DNA of 34,081 nucleotides from Thermoplasmata archaeon. GTDB taxonomy: Archaea > Thermoplasmatota > Thermoplasmata > Thermoplasmatales > ARK-15. This document shows, in pieces, positions 18,080 through 34,081 of the stretch. Where the stretch lies: positions 1-34,081 of the forward strand of contig JAGDXS010000027.1 in the NCBI GenBank assembly GCA_023261755.1, given 5' to 3'. Under the pieces are notes generated by a model. That model did not search any database. It saw only the letters and a list, made by a program, of their open reading frames with translations, and was not told the DNA's origin. The position numbers were made by a program, and so were the translations under genes. The first letter of the stretch is position 1, and every line of letters starts with the position of its first letter.

Positions 18080-18964
18080 ATGGAACTAATAAGAAAAGGA
18101 AAAGTTAAGGAAGTGTATGCTTTAAACGACAAAGAATTATTATTCATTTTTACAGATAGCATTTCAGTCTTTGATAAAATAATTCCATCAAAAATTCCTG
18201 ATAAAGGTGCTTCACTTGCTCGAACTTCTGCCCACTGGTTTGAAATTGCTGAAAACATGGGCATTAATACACATTTTATAAAGCTTGAAGAAATGAACAG
18301 GATGAGGGTTAAGAGATTCTCAATTATGAACAAGGGAGACGTGAATAAAAATTCATTCCTTATACCACTTGAATTTATTGCTCGATACTATGTTGCAGGT
18401 TCATTATTTGATAGATTAAAAGAAGGGAAGATAAAAGCTGTAGAGCTTGGAATAAGGAATGTAAAATATGGTGAAAAACTTCCTCAACCATATTTTGAAG
18501 TTACAACAAAGTTCGAAGATCATGATAGGAATATAGATTTCAATGAAGCTATGGAAATTGGCGGTCTTCATAAAAATGAACTTGATGAAATCAAGGAACT
18601 AATATTTAAAATTGATGAAAGACTCAATAAAGATGTTGAATCGAGGGGCCTAATTCATGTAGATGGCAAAAAGGAATGGGCTTTAGATATGAATAGAAAT
18701 CCTGTCCTTGTGGATACATTTGGCACAGCAGACGAGGATAGATTTTGGGATCTAAAGGAATATGAAAAAGGAAATTTCATTGAATTAAGCAAGGAGTTTG
18801 TGAGAAAATATTACAGAGAAATAGGATATTACGACAAACTTTTGGAAGCAAGAGAAAAGGGACTAAAGGAACCTGAAATTCCACCATTACCAGATGATAT
18901 GATTAAAAAAACAAGTGTTCTCTACAAAGAAATGTATGAAAAAATAACAGGAAAAAAATGGTAA
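18080..18964 (+). CDS. purC: Phosphoribosylaminoimidazole-succinocarboxamide synthase
   Basis: The 294-residue enzyme joins aspartate to CAIR using ATP in purine synthesis. GKVKEVYAL at the N terminus is the ATP-binding loop, FDKIIPSKIPDKG, then PLEFIARYYVAGSLFDRLKEG and the LVDTFGTADEDRFW segment are the usual SAICAR synthetase signatures. It is longer than the bacterial form of about 240 residues and ends in a helical extension (PPLPDDMIKKTSVLYKEMYE). A TTTTTAAG TATA-like element lies about 28 bases before the ATG. It ends eight bases from a convergent gene. Confidence 0.96.
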   Translation: MELIRKGKVKEVYALNDKELLFIFTDSISVFDKIIPSKIPDKGASLARTSAHWFEIAENMGINTHFIKLEEMNRMRVKRFSIMNKGDVNKNSFLIPLEFIARYYVAGSLFDRLKEGKIKAVELGIRNVKYGEKLPQPYFEVTTKFEDHDRNIDFNEAMEIGGLHKNELDEIKELIFKIDERLNKDVESRGLIHVDGKKEWALDMNRNPVLVDTFGTADEDRFWDLKEYEKGNFIELSKEFVRKYYREIGYYDKLLEAREKGLKEPEIPPLPDDMIKKTSVLYKEMYEKITGKKW

Positions 18965-27482: not shown

Positions 27483-27521
27483 TGAATAAGAAAATGTTAT
27501 TGTGAATTTAACATTTTTGAA

Positions 27522-29357
27522 TTATTTAATGATTTCAAACTTTGATAAAATTATTTTAAAGCCTATGTCTGCAAACATATCAAGATTGCTTAAAAATAAA
27601 GGCACCATCTTTTCTTCCATAAAAATGTTAACTTTGCATGTACCGTTCTTACATTCAAATTCAAAATATAAAAAGAAAATGAGGTTATCGTTCATACTTT
27701 TTAAGAAATCCTCTACAATATTTCCAATCGAGGGAATTTCTTTTACAATAGTTGTAAGATTTACTATCTCTAAACCATTCCCATGATCCACAACAAATTG
27801 AATATTATTTACTTCGCTGCTGAAATTCTTCAATATACCTTTTGCATCTGGACCTTCAAAATTAAAAATGAATTGCATTGCTCCAATCTCAGATTCTAAA
27901 CCAAGGTTTCTAATAAATGCAATTGGATCCTCAGATTCACATACTTTTTCTATTCTAAAACTATCCTTTCCTAGAATAGTGTGATAAATATCATGAACAT
28001 TTAAAATTCTTGCCGTTACATCATATTCATAATCCTTGTTGTACTGGTCGCAATAGTATATTCTATTGTTGTTTATTAAATGAAATGGCAAATGGAAAGA
28101 ACCTGGAAGGTTTATTTGCCTATCTACACTTATTTTTTCAAATATATCCTTATTTGATTTTGAAATATCTGGAAATTTTAGCCATAAGAATGACCTATTT
28201 TCATCTATTTTTATATTATTTCTAATTGCTTTTATCTTTACCTCCGGATATATTTGGGAACTGTTATCCAGGACAAAAAATAGATCCAAGGAGAGTGAAT
28301 CATTGTAAATTATTGCCTTATCTATGATATCTTTTATTAAAGGCATATAATCCATATCTTTTGAATAAATTATCTCCTTTTGGAACATTTCTTTATTTAA
28401 TGTACTAAATGGTAATTCATTTTTCTTTTCCTCTTGATAATCAATTTCAAGCTTTTTTACCTTTGAGAAAGAAAATTTTACACCCGATTCAACTATTTTA
28501 TTCAATGCCCTTAAGACGTCCAAAAGAAATCTTTCTTCAACTATCCATCTTACCCTGCATATTCCATTTTCACATTTTCCATCAAAATAAGATGTGAATG
28601 CAAATTTTTCAGAAAGATCTTTTACTGAATTGAATATTCCTTCTGATGGAATATTCAAATTATTAATCATATCTTTTAACATAAATTTATAAAATTCACC
28701 ATTAATTTTTACAATGAATTCATCCTCTTCTGGGTTTATAGTAGCCCTTTTCAATATTCCTATTAAATTTGGACCCTCATATGGAAAGGACACCTCCATC
28801 TCATAGAAATTCTGATCCACCTGACCGTATTTAAATAATTCAATAAAATTTTCAGATTCTGAAATTCTTTCAATTTTGAAAGAGCCTGAGCCATAAAATT
28901 CGTTATATGCTCTTTGTATTTTATAGAAACTTTCAGAGACATCCGGTTCTGAACTGGCATCGTACTGATAAAGATAATAAATTCTGCCTTCTTTATTTAA
29001 AACCAGTGGAAATACCATTCCCTTATCTACTGATCTTAGATTTTTTCCCATTAGCATTGATCTCATTTTTTCATTTCCCAATGTTTCCCCTTGGAAACTT
29101 ACCCAATATATGTTCTCATTTTTATTGAATTTAAGACCGATTTTTTCTCCTTCAAGAATTAGCCTGGAATATCCTGGATCATTTTCAGTAACAAAGAAAT
29201 AGTGCATTCCTGTCAAAAAATCGTAATAAATTGATTTCCCCTTTAATATATATTGAAGATTCTTTAACTTAATTTCTGTTGAAACGGAGAAAATAACCTG
29301 TTTTTGAAACATTATTTTATTTACATAAACATTAGGATCATTATTTTCAAATTCCAT
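27522..29357 (-). CDS. Unrecognised 611-residue protein with an internal tandem duplication
   Basis: No known domain is recognised. The protein consists of two homologous halves: residues about 16-310 and about 324-611. Matching landmarks keep a constant offset of 307: RIYYLYQY at 125 with RIYYCDQY at 432, FKIERISESE at 160 with FRIEKVCESE at 467, GILK at 200 with 507, and a CxNGxC pair (C262/C267 with C569/C574). There is no signal peptide or membrane segment. The start ATG has a GAGGTG ribosome site about eight bases before it, and an 18-base A/T palindrome lies upstream at 29380-29397. A sensor or regulatory protein is one guess, but this is unsupported. It may share a transcript with the dehydratase-like gene. 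Confidence 0.75.
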   Translation of the reverse strand: MEFENNDPNVYVNKIMFQKQVIFSVSTEIKLKNLQYILKGKSIYYDFLTGMHYFFVTENDPGYSRLILEGEKIGLKFNKNENIYWVSFQGETLGNEKMRSMLMGKNLRSVDKGMVFPLVLNKEGRIYYLYQYDASSEPDVSESFYKIQRAYNEFYGSGSFKIERISESENFIELFKYGQVDQNFYEMEVSFPYEGPNLIGILKRATINPEEDEFIVKINGEFYKFMLKDMINNLNIPSEGIFNSVKDLSEKFAFTSYFDGKCENGICRVRWIVEERFLLDVLRALNKIVESGVKFSFSKVKKLEIDYQEEKKNELPFSTLNKEMFQKEIIYSKDMDYMPLIKDIIDKAIIYNDSLSLDLFFVLDNSSQIYPEVKIKAIRNNIKIDENRSFLWLKFPDISKSNKDIFEKISVDRQINLPGSFHLPFHLINNNRIYYCDQYNKDYEYDVTARILNVHDIYHTILGKDSFRIEKVCESEDPIAFIRNLGLESEIGAMQFIFNFEGPDAKGILKNFSSEVNNIQFVVDHGNGLEIVNLTTIVKEIPSIGNIVEDFLKSMNDNLIFFLYFEFECKNGTCKVNIFMEEKMVPLFLSNLDMFADIGFKIILSKFEIIK

Positions 29358-29379
29358 AAACTTTGCACCTCAGGAATTT

Positions 29380-29397
29380 AATTAATAATTATTAATT
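29380..29397. repeat. 18-base perfect A/T palindrome upstream of the duplicated-protein gene
   Basis: AATTAATAATTATTAATT is its own reverse complement. It lies in the 111-base gap between divergent genes, just upstream of the minus-strand 611-residue gene, where a promoter would be. It could be an operator or just A/T-rich promoter DNA with TATA-like character on both strands; such sequences arise easily at this base composition. Confidence 0.4.
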
Positions 29398-29468
29398 CTA
29401 GTAATAAATTTTTCTTTAAAACAATGGAAAAATTTATTATGGGTATATCATTTATATTTTGAAAAATT

Positions 29469-30149
29469 ATGAAAATTAGAGCATTTAAATCAATGTTCAT
29501 CATCGGGGAGAGAAAATTATTCGAATCACTTTCAGAATACATTAAGATTGAAAAAGACGCGTCAAAAACAGCTCAGGAAATGTTTTTATGCAATGGAGAA
29601 AATTTTGTAACATTAAAGGAAAAATTGAAAGAATTTGAAAAAGATGGTGATGAAATAACATTTGATCTAAAAAGTAACATATTGGAGGGTGCCATTAGCC
29701 CCAACCTGCTTGATACTTTCCTTGAATTAATTGAACAATTTGATAACATTTTGGATCTTTTGTACTTTGTAAGCAGGGAAATTTCAAGGTTCCATCTGTT
29801 TTTACAAAAAGATAAAAATGGAAATGAAAGAATAATATGTGAATTTTATAGAAAATTTGTGGATATAGTGAATATGCATTTAAATGCCCTGGATAAAATA
29901 GAATTGATGCTAAATACAAGTTCGGAAAATGAAATTATAAAGGCATGGTCTGAAATAATAGATTTTGAGGAAAGGGTAGATGATATTAAGGACAATCTTC
30001 TAGATACTGTCTATTCCGAATCAGGATCACTTCATTATTTGATTTTCATTCATTTGGTTGAAATAATACACAAGCTTGATGATCTACTTGATACTGATAG
30101 AGATATTTCTGAATCTATACTTAACGTTGTTTATACTATAAGTAAGTAA
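29469..30149 (+). CDS. DUF47/PhoU-like helical protein
   Basis: This 226-residue protein is all-helical. It shows the acidic metal-binding patterns of the PhoU/DUF47 family: EKDGDEITFDL near residues 57-67, EERVDDIKDNLLDT near 175-188, and IIHKLDDLLDTDRDIS near the C terminus. Family members often pair with a Pit-type phosphate transporter gene and are thought to regulate it, but no transporter lies nearby in this window. The ATG at 29469 has TATA-like sequence about 30 bases before it (AAATTTATTATG). Its end overlaps the convergent glycerophosphodiesterase gene by 14 bases. Confidence 0.85.
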   Translation: MKIRAFKSMFIIGERKLFESLSEYIKIEKDASKTAQEMFLCNGENFVTLKEKLKEFEKDGDEITFDLKSNILEGAISPNLLDTFLELIEQFDNILDLLYFVSREISRFHLFLQKDKNGNERIICEFYRKFVDIVNMHLNALDKIELMLNTSSENEIIKAWSEIIDFEERVDDIKDNLLDTVYSESGSLHYLIFIHLVEIIHKLDDLLDTDRDISESILNVVYTISK

Positions 30150-30840
30150 CTTGTTTTCTTATTATGTCGCATCTGTCTGAAATTATTCCATACAAATTTT
30201 TTGCGTAATTTTTAATGATTGATATGTCATTAACCGTCCAGGGTGCTAGTTTAATTTTTTCATTATTTAATTTTACAAAATTATCCAGAATTTTAATGTC
30301 AGGTAAAAGATATTCAAGATTAAATTCTTCAATAAATTTTTCCAATACATCAAATGGAAGAATTTTTTCTGAATTTTTTTCATAATCCAAACCAAGGATA
30401 TATTTTTCAGAATATAATCTCATCTCTTCCAGAGATTTAGGATCAAAAGATATGAAAACAAGATTTCTGTAATTATTAAAATTTTTATGCAGAATTTCTG
30501 GAAGCGCTTCATTGTATCTTTTACCATAATCGTCTATTGTTTTCAATTCAACATAAATTTTTTTATCACCGAACTTTTTTACTACTTCGTACAATGTTGG
30601 TATGTGATCATTTCCAAGCTTAATCTTCTGAATTTCAGATAATGATAATTCATAAATTTTTTCATCCATATTTGATAATCTTTTTAAATCAAAGTCATGA
30701 AAAACAATAGGAACATGATCTGAGGAAAGATGTACATCAAGCTCAACAGCATCTGCACCATTTTTAAATGCATCTTCAAATGATCCAATTGTATTTTCCA
30801 CGTGTGATATTGGTAATCCTCTATGTCCAACAATTTCCAT
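30136..30840 (-). CDS. Glycerophosphodiester phosphodiesterase
   Basis: This 234-residue enzyme has the full GDPD active site: VGHRG (His6, Arg7), ENT (Glu15), ELDVH (Glu33, Asp35, His37), FHDFDLKR with catalytic His48, and VELK with a later Glu. It hydrolyses glycerophosphodiesters to glycerol phosphate and an alcohol. No signal peptide is visible, so it is cytoplasmic. Divergent from glpK with a 72-base shared upstream region, it fits a glycerol/phospholipid salvage module. Whether it acts on glycerol-1-phosphate diesters (archaeal lipids) or imported glycerol-3-phosphate diesters cannot be told. Confidence 0.93.
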   Translation of the reverse strand: MEIVGHRGLPISHVENTIGSFEDAFKNGADAVELDVHLSSDHVPIVFHDFDLKRLSNMDEKIYELSLSEIQKIKLGNDHIPTLYEVVKKFGDKKIYVELKTIDDYGKRYNEALPEILHKNFNNYRNLVFISFDPKSLEEMRLYSEKYILGLDYEKNSEKILPFDVLEKFIEEFNLEYLLPDIKILDNFVKLNNEKIKLAPWTVNDISIIKNYAKNLYGIISDRCDIIRKQVTYL

Positions 30841-30912
30841 AGTTAATGTAATATTATTCTGAAAATAAATGTTTTGAGCAAATTTATTATCATGTTTTAC
30901 AATATTAAATTC
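30841..30912. promoter_or_regulatory. Shared upstream region of the phosphodiesterase and glpK
   Basis: The region holds TATA-like ACATTTATTTT for the minus-strand gene and AAATTTATTAT (about 30881-30891) for glpK, each about 25-30 bases from its ATG. Divergent promoters in such close contact invite joint regulation of glycerol use. No operator palindrome is evident. Confidence 0.45.
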
Positions 30913-32406
30913 ATGGGAAAAGATTACATTGCCGCAATAGATGTGGGTACAACAGGTACAAAATGCATAATTTTTGATAAAAATGCAAAAATAGTTTCTA
31001 AAAGTTATATTAAAAATAATTTAATATATCCACATCCAGGATGGGTGGAACAGGATCCAATGGAACTTGTCGAAAATGTTAAAATTGTTGTAAAGGATGC
31101 AATTAAAAAAGCAAAGGTAGAAAAGGGAGACATAACAGCAATAGGAATTACAAATCAGAGAGAATCCATAGTTGCCTGGAATAAAAATACGGGCATACCC
31201 TACTATAATGTTATCTCTTGGCAGGATACAAGAACAATAGAAATATGCAACGATCTAATTAAAGAAAATTATACTGCCTTAATTAAAAATAAAAGTGGTT
31301 TGTCAATAAATACATACTTTTCAGCTCCTAAAATAAAATGGCTTTCGAATAATATAAATAAGTTCAACGATGGTATTAAAAAAAATGAGGCTTATGTTGG
31401 AACAGTGGATTCCTGGATATTATGGAATCTTACAGGAGGTGTATTTGCTACAGATTTTACAAATGCATCTAGAACAATGTTAATGAATTTAAAAAAATTA
31501 AAATGGGATGATGACTTATTAAATTTATTTGGAATTAATAAAAATATTCTGCCCAATATTTATCCATCATCCAACAGAGGGTTTTTTGGATTTAGTAAGG
31601 AGAATGGCCCATTTATGGAAAATATTCCTGTTTCTGGTATATTGGGAGATCAGCAGGCATCACTCTTAGGCCAAGCATGTTATGAGGAAGGTATGATCAA
31701 AAATACATATGGTACAGGATCGTTCATTCTTTTAAACACAGGAAGAGAAATAAAATATTCAAAACATGGACTTATAACAACAGTAGCTTTTGGTGATGAA
31801 AAAAATATTTCTTATGCACTTGAAGGATCTATTGCTTATACAGGTTCGATTATTGACTGGTTAAAAAACAATATGGGAATTCTTAAAGATGTTAATGAAA
31901 GTGAAAAAATTGCAATTTCAGCTGGAAGTTCAAATGGCGTTTATTTTGTGCCATCTTTTAGCGGACTTTATGCACCATACTGGGATATGAGCGCTAGGGG
32001 CCTTATTATTGGATTAACATCATTTACTAGAAAAGAACATATTGTTCATGCTGCTATAGAAAGTATTGGGTTCCAAACAAGGGATGTTCTGGAGTCAATG
32101 GAAAAAGATTTGAATAAAAAAATCACTGAATTAAGAGTGGATGGTGGAGCATCAAAAAATAATTATTTAATGCAAATACAATCAAATATTATAGGTATAA
32201 ATGTCCTACGTTCAGGAATTTCTGAAACAACTTCCCTTGGCGCAGCATTCTCTGCTGGCCTTGCGATAGATTATTTCTCTTCAGATTTATGGAAATATTA
32301 TTCAATTGATGAAATATTCCAACCAAAAAATTCTGAAAGTGAAAGGGAAATTTCTTATAATTTATGGAAAGAGGCTGTAAAAAGATCAAAAAATTGGATT
32401 CATTAA
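30913..32406 (+). CDS. glpK: Glycerol kinase
   Basis: The 497-residue enzyme of the FGGY family phosphorylates glycerol to sn-glycerol 3-phosphate with ATP. The N-terminal phosphate loop is AAIDVGTTGTKCIIFD, GITNQRESIVAWNKNTG and SWQDTRT are glycerol kinase signatures, and TYGTGSF plus RVDGGASKNNYLMQIQ make the second ATP-binding half. The frame is open back to 30874, but the TATA-like element at about 30881-30891 places initiation close to 30913, where the conserved MGKDYIAAI start lies. Family length is about 500 residues, so nothing is missing. It lies divergent to a glycerophosphodiesterase gene. Confidence 0.95.
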   Translation: MGKDYIAAIDVGTTGTKCIIFDKNAKIVSKSYIKNNLIYPHPGWVEQDPMELVENVKIVVKDAIKKAKVEKGDITAIGITNQRESIVAWNKNTGIPYYNVISWQDTRTIEICNDLIKENYTALIKNKSGLSINTYFSAPKIKWLSNNINKFNDGIKKNEAYVGTVDSWILWNLTGGVFATDFTNASRTMLMNLKKLKWDDDLLNLFGINKNILPNIYPSSNRGFFGFSKENGPFMENIPVSGILGDQQASLLGQACYEEGMIKNTYGTGSFILLNTGREIKYSKHGLITTVAFGDEKNISYALEGSIAYTGSIIDWLKNNMGILKDVNESEKIAISAGSSNGVYFVPSFSGLYAPYWDMSARGLIIGLTSFTRKEHIVHAAIESIGFQTRDVLESMEKDLNKKITELRVDGGASKNNYLMQIQSNIIGINVLRSGISETTSLGAAFSAGLAIDYFSSDLWKYYSIDEIFQPKNSESEREISYNLWKEAVKRSKNWIH

Positions 32407-32504
32407 ATTTAATTTATTTAAAGATAATAAAAGTGGTAGGTATGAAGAAAAAAATGGAAATATTTTTATATAGATTTTTTATATTATCAAATGGGATGTT
32501 TTAA

Positions 32505-32790
32505 TTGCCCGGTCTTATGGTAGGATTAGGTAGAGGAGTGGTACCTTCAAACACATTATTCGCAATCGTTGCAAAAGTTCAGATAATTCCACCGGAAGGT
32601 AGACAGCAGAGTACTCAAAAAGGTTCTAAGCATTTTATACTCCTTGATAACATGGTTCAATGTTTGGTAACAAATTGGAACAAGCAGAGGAAGCTATTAT
32701 AAAATACTGTAAATCAATCAATTCTCAGAATAAAATGACAGTGGCGGCTTTTTCAGGTCAGGTAATTTTTTATTTACTTACCAAAAAGGT
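32505..32790 (+). pseudogene. Truncated, frameshifted von Willebrand factor A (VWA) domain gene
   Basis: This is the left part of a VWA-domain protein, broken twice. The first frame (start TTG 32505 or ATG 32517) reads to FILLDN. There the frame shifts: the next two bases (32652-32653) are AT where one serine codon is needed, and from 32654 the other frame reads GSMFGNKLEQAEEAIIKYC and continues to VAAFSGQ. Joined, this is a good VWA metal site (D-x-S-x-S, DNSGSM), so a one-base loss in the serine codon explains it. Uncorrected, the first frame stops at 32702. Similarity fades after about 32765-32790, far short of the about 180-residue domain, so the 3' part is missing too. An assembly error could explain the frameshift but not the truncation. 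Confidence 0.65.
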
Positions 32791-32830
32791 ATGCTCCCGA
32801 CGGGATTTATATCATTTTTGGTATAAATCC
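32779..32830. repeat. Interlocked inverted repeats upstream of the recombinase
   Basis: Three inverted repeats are packed in 52 bases. TACCAAAAA (32779-32787) pairs with TTTTTGGTA (32815-32823). GGATTTATA (32803-32811) pairs with TATAAATCC (32822-32830). TCCCGACGGGA (32795-32805) is an odd palindrome with five-base arms, a G/C island in A/T-rich DNA. They stand between the broken VWA gene and the recombinase promoter. They may be recombinase arm or core sites, regulator operators, or a terminator hairpin. Confidence 0.5.
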
Positions 32831-32834
32831 ATAA

Positions 32835-32854
32835 TTTTATATACTAGCATGCTA
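32835..32854 (+). promoter_or_regulatory. Recombinase promoter with a palindrome near the transcription start
   Basis: ATTTTATATA at about 32834-32843 is a TATA element 23-32 bases ahead of the ATG at 32866. TAGCATGCTA (32845-32854), a perfect ten-base palindrome, follows directly and lies before or at the expected start. This suggests repression by a bound protein, possibly the recombinase itself. Confidence 0.5.
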
Positions 32855-32865
32855 TACATATAATC

Positions 32866-34081
32866 ATGGTATTCAAAAGCAAATATGAAAACTTAAAAGC
32901 TAATAAATTGGTCATGGAGTGGTATAAGAATTTACAAGGTGGATCTTTAATAACTGCCGATAATTATTTAAGGACTTTAGGTCGTTATTGTAAATTAACA
33001 AATAATACCCCAGAATCTATTCTGGAAAAAGCTAAATCTGGAGAATTGAAACATGAGTTTATTGAGTTCGTAAATGATCTTCAAAATCAGGGTAAAAACG
33101 GTTCTTATCTTGTATTGTTTAAAAAGATGCTTAACTCATGGCTTACATTCAATAATTTAGATCAAAAGCTCCAAGGAATAAAGATAAGGGGAGCAAATTT
33201 AACACCTACAATTCAAGATGAAAGACCACCTACTAGAGAGGAATTAGAAAAAATAATAAGAAATGCTAGCTTGAGAGGTAGAGCAATAATAGGAATTCTA
33301 GCTTTTTCAGGAATTAGGCCTGAATCCCTAGGTAATTATAAAGGAACAGATGGAATTGTCTTAAAAGATATTGAAGGCCTTGAAATAACAGATCAAGGTA
33401 TTAACTTTAAAATATTTCCGGCTATGTTAAAAATAAGGCCTAACTTAAGCAAAAAAGGAAATGCTTATTTCACTTTCATACCTGAGCAAGCCGGTAAATA
33501 TATCAAGGATTACTTAGATCTAAGACTTAGAAATGGGGAGAAATTGAACATGGAAAGTCCTCTCATACTATCGGATCCCAGAGGATCACATTCTAAGGCT
33601 ACAGAGTTCATTTCTACAATGTTCTTGTTAAGGGATGTGAAAAAAGCAATAAAAAAATCCGGTTTTTCTTTTAGGCCTTATGTAATGAGGGTATATTTTG
33701 CTAGTGCTATGGATATAGCTGAAAGCAAAGGCTTAATTTCTCATTCATGGAGAGCCTTTTTTATGGGCCACAAGGGAGATATTGAAGCAAGGTATTCAAC
33801 GAACAAGAGATTACCGCCTGATGTAATAGAACAGATGAGGGAAGCATATAAAAGATGTCAGAAATACCTGATTACTGAATTACCCCAAGTTGAAGAGAGC
33901 AATCTTCAGGATTTGATAAAAAAACAAATGCTTTTAGTAGCTGGATTCAAGCCCGAAGAAATAGAGAAAATGAACTTACCAGAAATGAGCAATGAGGAAA
34001 TAACTCAAAAAATCAGGGAAAAGCTCATGGGATCACTCAAAGAATCCTTGGTGAAGAATGCAAAAGGGCAATTTGTTATCA
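32866..34081 (+). CDS. Tyrosine recombinase/integrase (3' end beyond window)
   Basis: The reading frame is open for 405 codons from ATG 32866 to the window end. An N-terminal SAM-like core-binding domain (residues about 10-105) is followed by the catalytic domain with Arg151 in AFSGIRPESL, a candidate Lys near 196-197 (LSKKGNAYF), Arg275 in RPYVMRVYF (Tyr272 stands where HxxR enzymes have His), His302 in MGHKGD and nucleophile Tyr310 in EARYS. Residues 340-405 form an extra charged helical tail. The type is that of archaeal proviral or plasmid integrases, not the short XerA. The remaining reading frame lies beyond the window. Its TATA element suggests a leaderless transcript. Confidence 0.85.
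   Translation, partial: MVFKSKYENLKANKLVMEWYKNLQGGSLITADNYLRTLGRYCKLTNNTPESILEKAKSGELKHEFIEFVNDLQNQGKNGSYLVLFKKMLNSWLTFNNLDQKLQGIKIRGANLTPTIQDERPPTREELEKIIRNASLRGRAIIGILAFSGIRPESLGNYKGTDGIVLKDIEGLEITDQGINFKIFPAMLKIRPNLSKKGNAYFTFIPEQAGKYIKDYLDLRLRNGEKLNMESPLILSDPRGSHSKATEFISTMFLLRDVKKAIKKSGFSFRPYVMRVYFASAMDIAESKGLISHSWRAFFMGHKGDIEARYSTNKRLPPDVIEQMREAYKRCQKYLITELPQVEESNLQDLIKKQMLLVAGFKPEEIEKMNLPEMSNEEITQKIREKLMGSLKESLVKNAKGQFVI

Follow-up and report, generated by a model that had tools for sequence, protein, structure and literature searches.

Genes at the right end of the contig

The DNA analysed here (the window) is one contig in full, C22, 34081 bp long, from an archaeal MAG of 1.22 Mb in 38 contigs. 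The closest named relatives of this MAG are Thermoplasmata, including acid-mine-drainage 'plasma' genomes and Ferroplasma. The window is syntenic with two sister species, G001 and G002, up to about position 27483. The DNA that follows (27484-32864), which holds a gene for a 611-aa protein, a DUF47/PhoU-like gene, GDPD, glpK and the remnant of a VWA gene, has no match in either species, and glpK is absent from G001-G004. The 611-aa protein (27522-29357, minus strand) is without a Pfam match and apparently consists of two similar halves, in which the stretches 'KCENGICRV' and 'ECKNGTCKV' are alike.

The VWA-domain remnant (32505-32764, plus strand) is spread over two frames, 32517-32669 and 32654-32764. 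One base is missing near 32655, which causes a frameshift at the MIDAS motif (DN..MFGN). When the frameshift is read through, the remnant matches the first ~85 residues of VWA proteins of ~394-431 aa, and its match to Pfam VWA_2 (E 1e-5) falls just under the cut-off. Similarity ends at 32764, in agreement with the original prediction, which saw it fade between about 32765 and 32790. No further VWA piece was matched elsewhere in this genome. Judged by its frames and homology, this gene is a pseudogene remnant in the chromosomal flank, broken already.

The last gene of the window (32866-34081, plus strand) encodes a tyrosine recombinase that faces rightwards and out of the contig, as had been proposed. 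Its frame is stop-free for 405 codons (32866-34080) and is ended solely by the contig end; since its relatives continue for ~30 residues past the point of truncation, only the tail is missing. The protein matches the PHROG_1 integrase (E 9e-10) and the archaeal XerA model NF040815 (E 4e-10), the latter with 39.7 bits. A XerA chromosome-dimer resolvase would score above the 220-bit cut-off of this NCBIfam equivalog, and that identity was rejected. PDB chains of XerA match only weakly, and Pfam Phage_integrase (PF00589) gave no match in this protein. The residues R151, K196, Y272, R275, H302 and Y310 are invariant among 14 relatives of the integrase, and the YxxR box is formed by Y272-x-x-R275. 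The signature R...YxxR...Y is that of the pNOB8-type enzymes (PMC8371274), here represented by R151, Y272xxR275 and Y310, together with K196 and H302 (in full, R..K..YxxR..H..Y). Directly upstream, an AT-rich leader with a TATA-like sequence (32831-32865, plus strand) is the probable promoter of the integrase.

The tRNA-Glu 3' end beside the integrase

Between the VWA remnant and the integrase lie 17 nt of a tRNA gene, which the original prediction overlooked. Read on the minus strand, positions 32808-32792 give AAATCCCGTCGGGAGCA, the final 17 bases of tRNA-Glu(CTC), with the 3' end of the tRNA pointing left, to the chromosome. The genes for this tRNA in the sister species end in AAATCCCGCCGGGAGCA. 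In the present genome tRNA-Glu(CTC) is a single-copy gene at the very end of another contig, C4, where it adjoins ABCE1 in a neighbourhood conserved in both sister species. Contig C4 stops inside the gene, 21 nt short of its 3' end (GCTCCCGTGG...CTCTCAATCCCTCGACACGG, followed by the break).

The 17 nt of the window complete the tRNA of C4, with perfect pairing in the acceptor stem (GCTCCCG/CGGGAGC) and in the T stem (ACGG(G)/CCCGT). A composite of 54 nt from C4, the four bases GTTC and the window core folds as a full cloverleaf, where GTTC (the conserved start of the T loop, between the two pieces) was filled in from relatives. The last 21 nt of the tRNA-Glu(CTC) of this species are accordingly predicted to read GTTCAAATCCCGTCGGGAGCA. 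In particular, the T stem carries a species-specific base: CCCGT pairs with ACGG(G) here, and CCCGC with GCGGG in the sister species. Where the window core departs from the sister species by its one base, the C4 half departs at the pairing partner of that base. The core agrees with the expected tRNA 3' end at 17/17 positions; the best of 400 random 126-bp windows from the same contig reached 12/17. Rfam returned no tRNA match on the junction, for which the core is too short, and an exact search of IMG/VR with the 17-nt core and the right end of the window found nothing.

The core holds a palindrome, TCCCGACGGGA, and CCCGtCGGG is nearly self-complementary. A 12-bp inverted repeat (32803-32814 and 32819-32830) lies between core and integrase and is possibly an arm site of the enzyme, going by its sequence and position. 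The original prediction had described packed inverted repeats at this place; one such pair can be recognized, and the packing as a whole is weak, with a folding z of only -2.0 for 32755-32865.

Since the 17 bases complete the sole tRNA-Glu(CTC) of the genome, truncated on C4, the junction has the form of an attR-type border. We consider it very probable that a mobile element has inserted into the 3' end of tRNA-Glu(CTC) and has its border at the right end of the contig, with attR at 32792-32808. The original prediction of an element border with the integrase just inside is thus borne out.

Some observations concern the surroundings of tRNA-Glu genes more widely. In G004 (locus L138), homologues of the left end of the window (a metallo-beta-lactamase and tRNA-Arg(CCG)) and of its purC occur in the 3' flank of tRNA-Glu(CTC), the window genes in question being 93-2927 and 18080-18964; the DNA around tRNA-Glu has perhaps been inverted or rearranged. 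The block at 27484-32864 may have been gained earlier at the same tRNA. The tRNA-Glu(TTC) gene of this MAG (G000; C37:8344-8438) has an apparent intron after the anticodon and is uncalled by ARAGORN at default settings.

Relatives of the integrase and their elements

Across GTDB genomes, 203 relatives of the integrase were detected, in Thermoplasmata, Nitrososphaeria, Bathyarchaeota, Hadesarchaea and others; the best 80 of them were retained and 79 examined. About two thirds of these 79 have an intact tRNA 48-180 bp upstream, most often at 48-50 bp. As a rule, then, the intact tRNA is directed towards the integrase; the tRNA piece in the window points away from it. The nearest relatives share the layout of the window, with an inverted tRNA 3' core before the integrase and an intact tRNA ~6-10 kb downstream. 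L177, in the nearest clade, has a 13-nt core and tRNA-Arg(TCG) 10.4 kb away; L222 a 15-nt core and an intact tRNA at 7.6 kb; L144 (genome G030) a 12-nt core and an intact tRNA at 10.5 kb; and L210 a core of 9 exact nt, with one mismatch beyond, and tRNA-Arg(CCG) at 5.9 kb. L240 is a further candidate. Core and integrase are 56-60 bp apart in L177, L222 and L144; in the window the distance is 57 bp. The idea that each clade keeps to one class of orientation was rejected, as the inverted arrangement appears several times in a quick tree of the integrases.

A direct repeat of the tRNA 3' end is found at both borders in L177, L222, L223 and L144. The scaffold of L223 (JAJZLU010000040.1; 9741-9960 and 19150-19400) is decisive for the mechanism: an empty attB lies side by side with attR and attL, which share a core of 14 nt with tRNA-Arg(TCT), so that empty and occupied sites stand on one scaffold. 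This scaffold contains an N10 gap and appears to have been assembled from a mixed population. In the complete element of L177 one DnaA-like ATPase (PHROG_5484) is recognizable among otherwise unknown proteins, a content that points to an integrative plasmid of small size or a small virus-like replicon. No relative of the window integrase was found in IMG/VR.

The same MAG has a second integrase of the family on C9 (47496-48804), 51% identical to that of the window and located at tRNA-Arg(TCT). The end of C17 and C9 share exactly 55 nt through the 3' end of this tRNA and then diverge. Since 55 nt is the overlap between contigs of this assembly (the k of the assembler), the sharing is a branch of the graph, best explained by occupied and empty sites that coexist in the sampled population. 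Contigs C22 and C9 both stop near the same integrase codon; no shared DNA was found between their ends.

Several integrases of the family look like chimeras (L181, L187, L202, L214 and others), with a catalytic part and tail that are near identical and an N-terminal third and upstream tRNA that differ. High DNA identity begins ~300-400 bp into the gene and ends at the stop codon.

The probable insertion and its place among known elements

At this border the left side is chromosome (glpK and the VWA remnant) and the right side is element. The proposed order is chromosome, core, integrase, element, and core with tRNA. The integrase of the element would recombine within the short 3' core of the tRNA (12-17 nt), restore a whole tRNA-Glu at the opposite end (attL, which is expected to join the end of C4) and leave only the core here, with its own gene just inside attR and reading into the element. 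Because the tRNA piece points away from the integrase, as in an attR with the integrase at that end, the intact tRNA-Glu is predicted far to the right, on the minus strand and joined to C4. Integration and excision would be reversible, and an empty site, if present in part of the cells, would show the tRNA of C4 running directly into '...GGGAGCATACCTTTTTGG-VWA'. From these sequences we infer a complete element that links C22 to C4, and an active enzyme.

The near border is read directly, and the far border follows from the tRNA cut at the end of C4; with the last 21 nt of tRNA-Glu(CTC) unassembled, the direct repeat is a prediction. Contig C4 ends short of the core instead of beyond it, a position that simple attL/attB branching leaves unexplained. 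None of the contigs in the bin continues C22, either by a contig-end overlap of at least 15 nt or by an integrase C-terminal tail; most of the element lies beyond the end of C22, and the cargo is absent from this assembly. The sister species offer no syntenic empty site for comparison, since synteny with G001 ends at 27483, glpK is missing in G001-G004 and the 3' flank of tRNA-Glu in G001 is not glpK/VWA.

The original prediction placed the insertion in the VWA gene, with the rest of that gene or a copy of the att core at the far end. A protein-coding target would fit the loss of VWA similarity only 28 bp from the core, and is nonetheless highly improbable: the border repeat is a tRNA 3' end, members of this integrase family consistently target tRNA genes, the VWA remnant already carries a frameshift and no other piece of it matches in this genome. 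With the remnant a pseudogene and its similarity gone before the core begins, no VWA remainder is to be expected at the far end. A search of 32740-32830 for the att repeat did yield a partner, in a form other than foreseen, namely the tRNA-Glu(CTC) gene cut by the end of C4. The core match itself could be fortuitous and the integrase directed at another target or none, given the palindrome within the core and the weakness of the flanking inverted repeats. This is scarcely credible beside a 17/17 match with a control maximum of 12/17, the completion of one specific tRNA in both stems with its contig ending right there, and the same spacing and orientation in relatives. It is also unlikely, if somewhat less so, that the integrase is decayed or stands alone beside a fossil att core, the remainder of the element having been lost or rearranged and an intact tRNA-Glu now lying elsewhere. 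The body of the element is indeed absent from the bin, and the integrases of several relatives are pseudogenes (L016, L017, L020 and L022), but here the 405-codon frame is open, all catalytic residues are kept and the nearest relatives retain elements of 6-10 kb.

Insertion of an element into tRNA-Glu(CTC) can be set beside known archaeal systems. The SSV-type suicidal integrases carry attP inside the integrase gene and have the signature R...KxxR...Y. Like the window enzyme they are archaeal tyrosine recombinases that use tRNA genes; unlike them, it has YxxR rather than KxxR and an att core that precedes the start codon by 57 bp, outside the coding frame, so that the gene is not split, and an SSV-type assignment was rejected. 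The pNOB8-type (type II, non-suicidal) archaeal tyrosine recombinases reportedly go back to She et al. With these the window enzyme shares R...YxxR...Y, an intact, open integrase gene on one side of att and the 3' end of a tRNA as target; on this sequence evidence it is a non-suicidal enzyme of the pNOB8 type. It differs from them in falling below the NF040815 cut-off and in having no match to Pfam Phage_integrase, which places it outside the well-described subfamilies. The pNOB8-type enzymes are reviewed in PMC8371274; the window integrase is perhaps close to fam30-08 of that review, a widely distributed integrase family without Pfam domains. Genomic islands flanked by tRNAs have been surveyed in acidophilic Thermoplasmatales (PMC12302457), that is, in the same archaeal order and likewise at tRNA 3' ends with direct repeats. 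That survey used IslandViewer predictions and its excerpted text does not describe this integrase family; the island of the window is cut off by the contig end. As far as these accounts go, the element is of an ordinary sort, tRNA-targeting archaeal integrases being well known (PMC8371274) and tRNA-flanked islands being reported in the order (PMC12302457).

The family also bears on how such elements may reach new tRNAs. Identity at the N terminus follows the target tRNA, which is not so for identity in the catalytic part. Among pairs matched for catalytic identity (80-90%), those with the same target amino acid have an N-terminal identity of 0.83-0.93 and those with different ones 0.50-0.80, in a comparison that covers a few clades and whose statistics ignore phylogeny. 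For example, the N termini of L181 (tRNA-Val) and L187 (tRNA-Leu) are 46% identical, their catalytic parts 95% and their tails 98%. We tentatively suggest, while rating it at somewhat below an even chance, that the N-terminal third and the neighbouring att site form an exchangeable targeting cassette, that elements reach a new tRNA by recombining it onto a shared catalytic domain, and that the divergent tRNA-Glu(CTC) integrase of the window is one such variant.

With this analysis a tRNA gene replaces a protein gene as the target, and the missing end of the element is placed at tRNA-Glu(CTC) on C4, so that the cargo should be recoverable from the same metagenome. In addition, the locus adds a well-supported case to an under-described family of archaeal integrases, whose members use many tRNAs, in either orientation to the target, and may switch targets through exchange of the N-terminal part.
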